A DNA stretch of 64,000 nt from an uncultured Actinomycetes bacterium (GTDB taxonomy: Bacteria; Actinomycetota; Coriobacteriia; Coriobacteriales; Atopobiaceae), in assembly GCA_900314645.1 (NCBI GenBank), contig OMWB01000008.1, positions 1-64,000 on the forward strand, given 5' to 3'. Shown piece by piece: positions 8,905-10,415 of the stretch. The notes under the pieces were generated by a model, which was given only the letters and a program-made list of their open reading frames with translations, searched no databases and was not told the DNA's origin. The position numbers and the translations under genes are program-made. How positions within the stretch are numbered: position 1 is the first letter of the stretch; every line of letters begins with the position of its first letter.

Positions 8905-8934
8905 ACTGCTACGTTAGCCTGCACACTCAAGAAG

Positions 8935-9019
8935 AAGTGTACGTACGTTTTCGCTTGGAAGCGTCCTAGTGAACGAACTCGCAGGACAGCTCTGAAGAAG
9001 CGAAATCGTACGTACACTT
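8935..9019. repeat. Long inverted repeat, copy A of a pair bracketing the gene at 9062-10273
   Basis: The 22-nt arm at 8935-8956 (AAGTGTACGTACGTTTTCGC plus TT) is complementary to 8998-9019 with one mismatch. The arm contains the self-complementary GTACGTAC. The 41-nt centre can pair again (GTCCT 8963-8967 with AGGAC 8983-8987). Ts follow on the plus strand, so it could end the lipoprotein transcript. The outer arm is the same as in copy B at 10304-10392. Confidence 0.85.
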
Positions 9020-9061
9020 TTTGTTATACTCTCCTCCCTATCACGGTCGGAGGAGCTTGCT

Positions 9062-10273
9062 ATGGAACTGGCATTGTGCGGCATGTCTGCCCTTCGAGCA
9101 CTGAGGCAGCTGAGGGCGAGCGGGCTGAGCTTCGCAACGCTCCAACGAATCGCGCTGCCTGAACCAGTACCTTCGCCTAATGGCCGGTGGTCACAGAAGA
9201 GCATCCGTGAGCACCTTGCGCAACAGGGACTTGAGCTGCCATTTTCACGGTCCGCACCACTTAACGTGGCGGTGCCACACGAGCGTCTCCGGCTGCGCGT
9301 CAAGGGTACGAAGAGCACCATCTTCGCCAAGGGACTACCTGAAGCGTCATTCGTAAGGGCTGGCAATGTCCTCCTCAGCAGCCCTGAGCTGCTCTTCCTT
9401 GAGATGGGCCGTTTCATGGCACCCGAAGTGCAGCTGCTCTTTGGCATGGAGCTCTGTGGCTCATTTACCCGTGACGCGGCGAACCCCCGAAACGCTCAAG
9501 CGACGTTTTTCGTCCCCGCGGCAACGAGTACCCAGCGGATCCGTTCCTTCCTTGACAGCTGCCACGGTGTCGAAGGCATCAAGCAGGCCCGAGAGGCGCT
9601 TGCCTACGTCGTCGACAACGCATGGTCACCCATGGAGGCGGTCGTGGCTGCCCTCGCGACACTTCCCCTCGAGATGCTGGGATACGGGCTGGCGCCCATA
9701 ACGCTCAACGAGCGGGTTGAAACCAAAGGCGCTGGCGAGAAGGAGACGCGGGTTCCCGACTTGCTCGTCCAAGGCACCTCCGCAGGCCTCAACTACGACG
9801 GTGTCGGCCATCAAGACCTCAAGGGTGTTGTCGATGCCGCCCTGAACCTCGCAACCCATCCTGGCGAAGAGTCGAGCGCCAAGGAGCTGGAAGGTGCCCT
9901 CGCTGCCGCACGAATCGGCGTGCTGGGAGACAAGCGCCGCGATCGCGACCTCTCCGCACGTGGCTACACCGTGCTTCCGGTGACCAAGGAAGACCTCTAC
10001 GAGCTCGGGGGGCTCGACCGCGTGATGCGCCAGCTCATCGCGATTGTGGAGCGGGAGGGCAACCGGGACCTCTCCCGGCAGCGGACCGCACTGGAGAGCC
10101 GCGTCATCGCGAGTCTTCGGCAGCACTTCATTTGGTCACTCTTGCCTGGAAATGGCGCAAAGGAGGCGCGGGAGAAGCTCGACCGTTGGCTGGCGCCCAA
10201 CGAGCACCCGACCTTGGTCACGGGCGAGCTACGCGACGGCGCGTTGTCTCAAATCGAGGTCCGAGTGCTGTAG
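9062..10273 (+). CDS. Uncharacterised protein with C-terminal DUF559/PD-(D/E)XK nuclease-like segment
   Basis: I do not recognise a named function for this 403-residue protein. The N-terminal ~230 residues resemble, in general layout, the AbiEi-like regulators found with DUF559 domains in actinobacteria, but no firm motif is visible. In the C-terminal third, RVPDLLVQGTSAGLNYDGVG is followed by a His, and later DKRRDRDLSARGYTVLPVT. This fits the 'D..(E/N)xDG..H ... DxxRDxxLxxxGxxVLxVT' pattern of DUF559, a Vsr-like endonuclease fold. An Asn stands where Glu or Asp is usual, so activity is uncertain. It is a single gene bracketed by two hairpins that share their outer arms. It could be a stand-alone antitoxin-like regulator, a nuclease, or the cargo of a small mobile unit. 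Confidence 0.7.
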   Translation: MELALCGMSALRALRQLRASGLSFATLQRIALPEPVPSPNGRWSQKSIREHLAQQGLELPFSRSAPLNVAVPHERLRLRVKGTKSTIFAKGLPEASFVRAGNVLLSSPELLFLEMGRFMAPEVQLLFGMELCGSFTRDAANPRNAQATFFVPAATSTQRIRSFLDSCHGVEGIKQAREALAYVVDNAWSPMEAVVAALATLPLEMLGYGLAPITLNERVETKGAGEKETRVPDLLVQGTSAGLNYDGVGHQDLKGVVDAALNLATHPGEESSAKELEGALAAARIGVLGDKRRDRDLSARGYTVLPVTKEDLYELGGLDRVMRQLIAIVEREGNRDLSRQRTALESRVIASLRQHFIWSLLPGNGAKEAREKLDRWLAPNEHPTLVTGELRDGALSQIEVRVL

Positions 10274-10303
10274 GCACCCAGGCCTCGATCTGAGATTACG
10301 TAG

Positions 10304-10392
10304 AAAAGTGTACGTACGTTTTCGCTAGTTCAGAGTAATCCTCCGCTTTTGTTGGCCGAGATTACTGAAAGCAAAAACGTACGTACACTTTT
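10304..10392. repeat. Long inverted repeat, copy B of the pair bracketing 9062-10273
   Basis: 10304-10326 (AAAAGTGTACGTACGTTTTC plus GCT) pairs with 10370-10392 with a single mismatch. Inside it, 10329-10340 pairs with GATTACTGAA (10360-10369) apart from a 2-nt bulge, giving a stem of over 30 bp. It lies between convergent genes. The outer arm equals that of copy A, while the inner arms differ in sequence and yet remain self-paired. Confidence 0.85.
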
Positions 10393-10415
10393 CGTGCTCA
10401 AGTGGCGTATGTGGA

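Follow-up and report, generated by a model that had tools for sequence, protein, structure and literature searches.

Palindromic DNA units associated with a family of nuclease-like genes in Coriobacteriia

A gene for a nuclease-like protein in the analysed stretch of DNA (the window, 64,000 nt, from a gut bacterium) belongs to a family whose members are associated with palindromic DNA units. The arms of these units are matched and fast-changing, solitary units lie dispersed in the genomes, their occupancy differs between relatives, and the modelled protein has a nuclease-type fold and nuclease-type residues. We propose a system of a nuclease and its cognate palindromes, similar to REP/RAYT and based on a non-HUH nuclease. 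That the protein itself moves its own units is the mechanism we infer as likeliest, with a probability of about one in two.

The gene and its predicted protein

The features of the window locus are listed in Table 1. The gene lies between a cyclophilin-like lipoprotein gene and trpS, and no AbiEii-type nucleotidyltransferase toxin was found among these next-door genes. Searches of the window protein against Pfam, NCBIfam and PADLOC yielded no credible match. The initial annotation had described a DUF559-like end, which was not recovered: no Pfam family, DUF559 included, matched even at E = 1. Pfam likewise gave no transposase match of any kind, and structure comparison of the protein showed no sign of a DDE transposase.

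Table 1 Features of the window locus
Feature	Position	Strand	Basis or remark
Gene for a 403-aa protein, sole nuclease-family member between the units	9062..10273	+	ORF, family searches
N-terminal domain (residues 1–184), like the AbiEi C-terminal antitoxin domain	9062..9613	+	Structure model (6y8q, Z 7.5)
Vsr/EDxHD-like nuclease domain (residues 189–331)	9626..10054	+	Structure model, conserved residues
Palindromic unit A, 5' of the gene	8932..9022	-	Outer arms 8935–8956 and 8998–9019
Palindromic unit B, 3' of the gene	10303..10393	+	Outer arms 10303–10326 and 10370–10393
CTCAAG, outer side of unit A	8926..8931	+	Probably coincidence
CTCAAG, outer side of unit B	10397..10402	+	Probably coincidence
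TATACT, candidate -10 box right after unit A	9025..9030	+	Inferred from sequence

The nuclease likeness of the protein rests on predicted structure and conserved residues. An AlphaFold2 model built with 54 natural relatives reached a pLDDT of 92.6. In this model, residues 189–331 resembled the EDxHD homing endonuclease I-Bth0305I (3r3p; Z 9.1, 97 aligned positions, 2.8 Å) and Vsr (1cw0; Z 8.7, 117 aligned positions, 3.2 Å), both among the best matches, and Foldseek alone gave a weak Vsr match (E 0.14). E192 and D233 are conserved in all 54 sequences, H250 in 53, D290 in 51 and D246 in 50; R293 is also conserved (within 50–54 of 54). The predicted catalytic residues were mapped onto I-Bth0305I by alignment range. 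The model thus combines a nuclease-type fold with E, D, H and D residues, and the protein may cleave DNA. It shares this fold and these residues with I-Bth0305I and Vsr, but differs from both in its fusion to an AbiEi-like domain and in the intact palindromes that flank its gene.

Residues 1–184 resembled AbiEi with Z 7.1 in the full-length model. Folded alone (pLDDT 95.5), they gave AbiEi (6y8q) as the top match over 120 aligned positions, with a score below Z 8, and Rv2827c with Z 5.0. The AbiEi match covers the antitoxin domain, since residue 1 of the model aligns to residue 64 of 6y8q and nothing precedes it; a winged-helix DNA-binding domain of AbiEi type is absent from the model.

A defence or toxin–antitoxin gene, with the hairpins as protective or control elements, would account for the modelled pairing of an AbiEi-like domain with a nuclease fold, and its fast-changing specificity resembles an arms race. 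The missing PADLOC match and the nature of the two neighbouring genes speak against such a function, which would also leave the solitary units without a gene unexplained, and we regard it as very unlikely.

Palindromic units of the window

Both hairpins of the initial annotation were confirmed at their positions, with a 21-nt outer arm (AAGTGTACGTACGTTTTCGCT) common to both, and the gene is the only one that they enclose. Units A and B are homologous 91-mers, A matching B when reverse-complemented, and their ungapped alignment also showed the different yet self-complementary inner arms. As single-strand DNA, both fold far better than shuffled sequences, with z values of -6.5 for hairpin A and -9.1 for hairpin B. 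With at most one mismatch, GTGTACGTACG occurs four times in the window, every time inside the two hairpins (0.53 expected).

CTCAAG was found outside both hairpins, where it had been read as a possible target duplication. Across 16 elements of the family, direct repeats outside the hairpins are not in excess (mean 2.8 nt, compared to 3.05 nt in mismatched pairs), and CTCAAG is therefore best taken as coincidence. The mutual orientation of the two units is inverted in the window and in loci L058, L088 and L094, but direct in L033 and L090. Transposon-like ends in constant inverted orientation, which only the window and a few other loci have, were consequently dropped as a feature. A classical insertion sequence was rejected because there is no family-wide target duplication and the orientation of the units is inconstant. 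These two points also separate the system from MITEs, with which, as with insertion sequences, it shares small inverted-repeat units and presence or absence between relatives.

The consensus scan detected no terminators and no sigma-70 promoters, at the TATACT box or elsewhere, and gave no support to the earlier idea of hairpins as terminators.

Distribution of the family

Family members were present in 188 of 296 sampled Coriobacteriia genomes and in 62 of the 124 sampled genera. The genome of the window has 11 family matches, of which two belong to a single ORF, and all 18 genomes of the genus carry the family with 2–16 matches each. A scan of named genomes detected 63 family loci, nearly all of them in Coriobacteriia. 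In several genomes of the class, some copies have a stop codon inside, which suggests that they are decaying. Among the plasmid records, one from Collinsella contains a distant relative. No family relative was found in phage collections, and the patterns applied to IMG/VR gave none either; a phage origin of the family was rejected on this basis.

Palindromes at the flanks of relatives

Many relatives have palindromes of their own (75–100 nt) at the gene flanks, with arms that differ between genes and are matched within them. Palindromes scoring at least 12 flank 80% of the main clade, whereas control flanks taken from these loci predict about 19%; at scores of at least 17 the values are 53% and 9%. 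This corresponds to an approximately fourfold and a sixfold excess, respectively, the control rate being approximate because long open frames were simply taken as control genes. In about a fifth of the main clade, the scan used found no clear palindrome. A stretch of at least 14 nt is shared between both flanks of a gene in 18% of loci, compared to zero mismatched pairings. In one large clade, the palindromes are located downstream only, as a tandem or nested pair. Arms are alike in close relatives and unlike in distant ones, with a weak overall correlation between arm and protein (Mantel 0.11, 15/999).

Two further arrangements were observed. The downstream flanks of L102, L107, L116 and L117 contain very long palindromes with arms of 36–43 nt and a 3-nt loop, and several inverted copies of the GTGGTGCACC motif surround the family genes at L055, L057 and L069, which belong to three related genomes.

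Solitary units elsewhere in the genomes

The exact 11-nt core of the window arm occurs six times in the 3.04 Mb genome. These occurrences form hairpins A and B and one further hairpin, C (G000:C9:34815-34901), which is located between tRNA-Ala and an unrelated gene and was the only other copy of the window arm to be found. The longer window-arm pattern is not present in any other of the 18 genomes of the genus.

Units with other arms show the same dispersal. The TAAC arm (TAACATACATTGGATT) is confined to G000, G002 and G006, which are exactly the 3 of 18 genomes of the genus with the cognate gene, and in these genomes its units include solitary ones far from any family gene. TAAC units are 99–100 nt long and have an oriented central box near GCAGGTAGA. 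In viral contigs, the 16-nt TAAC arm gave matches that were taken as chance because they were single and unpaired.

GTACCC units are bipartite, 79 nt long as cut, and stand alone in G000, G002, G003, G005 and G014; at L079, one also lies about 3.5 kb away from the family gene. No close relative of the GTACCC cognate gene was found in G002, G005 and G014, of which G002 and G014 are incomplete assemblies and G005, with GTACCC-type units present, is 96% complete. The exact palindrome GTGYACCCTTT occurs in 4 of 140 family genomes, with several copies in G003, compared to zero matches for the reversed control pattern among the same genomes. Three GTACCC units were seen within about 4 kb of G003 (C259, 88-4166; L246–L248), with no family gene in the loci examined.

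Copy numbers are low throughout: three units carry the window arm, and other arms have at most about nine matches or six exact units per genome. In two species, one solitary unit precedes a dehydrogenase-like gene, and those at the tRNA-Ala and yacP sites are downstream of genes.

The main rival to movement by the protein is regulation through a small number of sites, a reading that we consider unlikely. An AbiEi-type autoregulator would bind the half-sites, repress its own promoter and steer a few genes via the solitary units, with the nuclease domain used otherwise. The promoters of the AbiEi and Rv2827c genes contain 23-bp inverted repeats to which the respective protein binds (PMC7319586), unit A stops just 5' of the candidate -10 box, and the solitary unit upstream of the dehydrogenase-like gene would fit a regulatory site. 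The N-terminal domain is predicted to resemble both proteins in fold (Z 7.5 and 5.0), and inverted repeats near the gene are common to all three. However, the resemblance is to the antitoxin domain of AbiEi and not to its winged-helix DNA-binding domain. Further differences from AbiEi and Rv2827c are the attached nuclease-like domain, the missing AbiEii-type neighbour and the palindromes found downstream and elsewhere. An upstream hairpin is compatible with the operators considered in the initial annotation, whereas the downstream hairpin, the copies elsewhere and the whole clade with downstream palindromes only are left unexplained. The solitary units at the tRNA-Ala and yacP sites, which are downstream of genes, argue against autoregulation as well, as does G005, which has the units without a close relative of the cognate gene.

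DNA or RNA

Across 16 units, 38 cells of the arm alignment changed on both sides, compared to 20 in shuffles (0 of 500 reached 38), and the covariation also exceeded slid controls, although the set holds some related sequences and independence is overstated. Mismatches in 12 GTACCC units were G-T in 30 and A-C in 34 cases. Since the arms covary without a wobble bias, the sequence data point to palindromes that act as DNA rather than RNA. An RNA hairpin was rejected in view of the similar mismatch numbers and of Rfam, in which the window hairpin had no match at gathering score. A sub-threshold Rfam match of unit B (10304–10392) to mir-726 (27.5 vs 76 bits) is almost certainly spurious.

In the inner stem of the GTACCC units, columns 32 and 48 of alignment A4 were unpaired in 10 of 16 units, with well-paired neighbours. 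Vsr acts at mismatches, hence the interest of these columns.

Occupancy differences and mobility

Units have been gained or lost between relatives. In G008, the two genes that neighbour the window locus enclose an empty site, which carries no unit; the relatives compared are too distant for base-level resolution. In G006, a different gene occupies the window site. Hairpin C is absent from comparable orthologous tRNA-Ala sites in relatives. At the yacP/tRNA-Thr site, a unit is present in G000 and G006 and absent in G002, G003, G012, G011, G007, G008, G009 and G013. Locus L079 has a unit directly 3' of a gene, which is not found there in its approximately 90% identical relative L080.

The initial suggestion of a small mobile unit gained partial support from the empty site, from hairpin C beside unrelated genes and from the arrangements with other arms; a target duplication was not supported, and orthologous elements often stay in place. 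Many orthologues have kept their neighbours on both sides and are therefore long resident, and the relatives compared revealed no excision or insertion resolved to the base pair. Different species share the position of some solitary units (L193/L183 and L187/L186).

Small GC-rich inserts were also observed after tRNA-Ala and tRNA-Thr genes (L157 777-792, L158 8-23 and L224 83-98; also L223 and L225). They contain internal hairpins as well as a duplicate of the tRNA 3' end and resemble mini-elements targeted to tRNAs.

Presence and absence of the gene at syntenic sites would also fit a free-standing homing endonuclease, for which the unit is a long symmetrical target and which spreads its gene by break repair into unit alleles lacking it. 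The model places I-Bth0305I closest to the C-terminal domain (Z 9.1), members of this family dimerise on targets that approach 60 bp in length (PMC3943268), and the units are dyads of 75–100 bp. The empty site in G008, however, has no unit. Homing normally destroys its target, whereas here both units beside the gene are intact. We consider this explanation improbable.

Movement of the units by the protein also has observations against it. No target duplication was found across the family, the orientation of the two units varies and many orthologues are long resident. The positions of solitary units that are shared between species fit a conserved function as well, and copy numbers are low and the correlation between arm and protein weak.

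Proposed mechanism and comparison with REP/RAYT

Under the proposed movement of units by the protein, the window locus would be one representative of a genetic element with two parts, the gene and palindromic DNA units. The units of 75–100 bp would be the protein's own DNA sites, with two inverted half-sites, able to extrude as a hairpin or cruciform and probably bound by a protein pair; units adjacent to the gene and solitary units would be the same sites. Cuts or nicks at the units, once repaired, may lead to units being gained at new places and lost from old ones, and the gene together with its units would relocate more rarely than the units alone.

Such gain and loss would parallel the relation of REP palindromes to RAYT proteins. 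In REP/RAYT systems (REPtrons), the gene is likewise flanked by cognate palindromes that are also dispersed in the genome. REP palindromes are short and very abundant, with a copy number usually over 100, whereas the units described here measure 75–100 nt and are few per genome. RAYTs are HUH (Y1) enzymes; the nuclease domain of the window protein is predicted to have a Vsr/EDxHD fold, and because of this different fold the system is not a member of REP/RAYT. Protein and palindrome co-diverge in REP/RAYT (PMC8266576).

In the open-licence literature, we found no relevant papers tying DUF559, AbiEi-Vsr or Coriobacteriia to palindromic repeats. To our knowledge, the known bacterial dispersed palindromes that are coupled to a protein all use HUH enzymes.

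Taken together, the results suggest a small genetic element of a kind not yet described, mobile in part. More tentatively, it may be an undescribed type of element of the whole class, in which a non-HUH nuclease of Vsr/EDxHD type recognises and spreads DNA hairpins, with hairpin sequence and protein changing together in each lineage. If so, the spreading of palindromes would have arisen a second way, with a large nuclease family that half of the sampled genera of Coriobacteriia possess and many members of which have their own DNA hairpin. The family would provide natural pairs of a protein and a long DNA site that are directly testable, and many unnamed genes of common gut bacteria would be explained.
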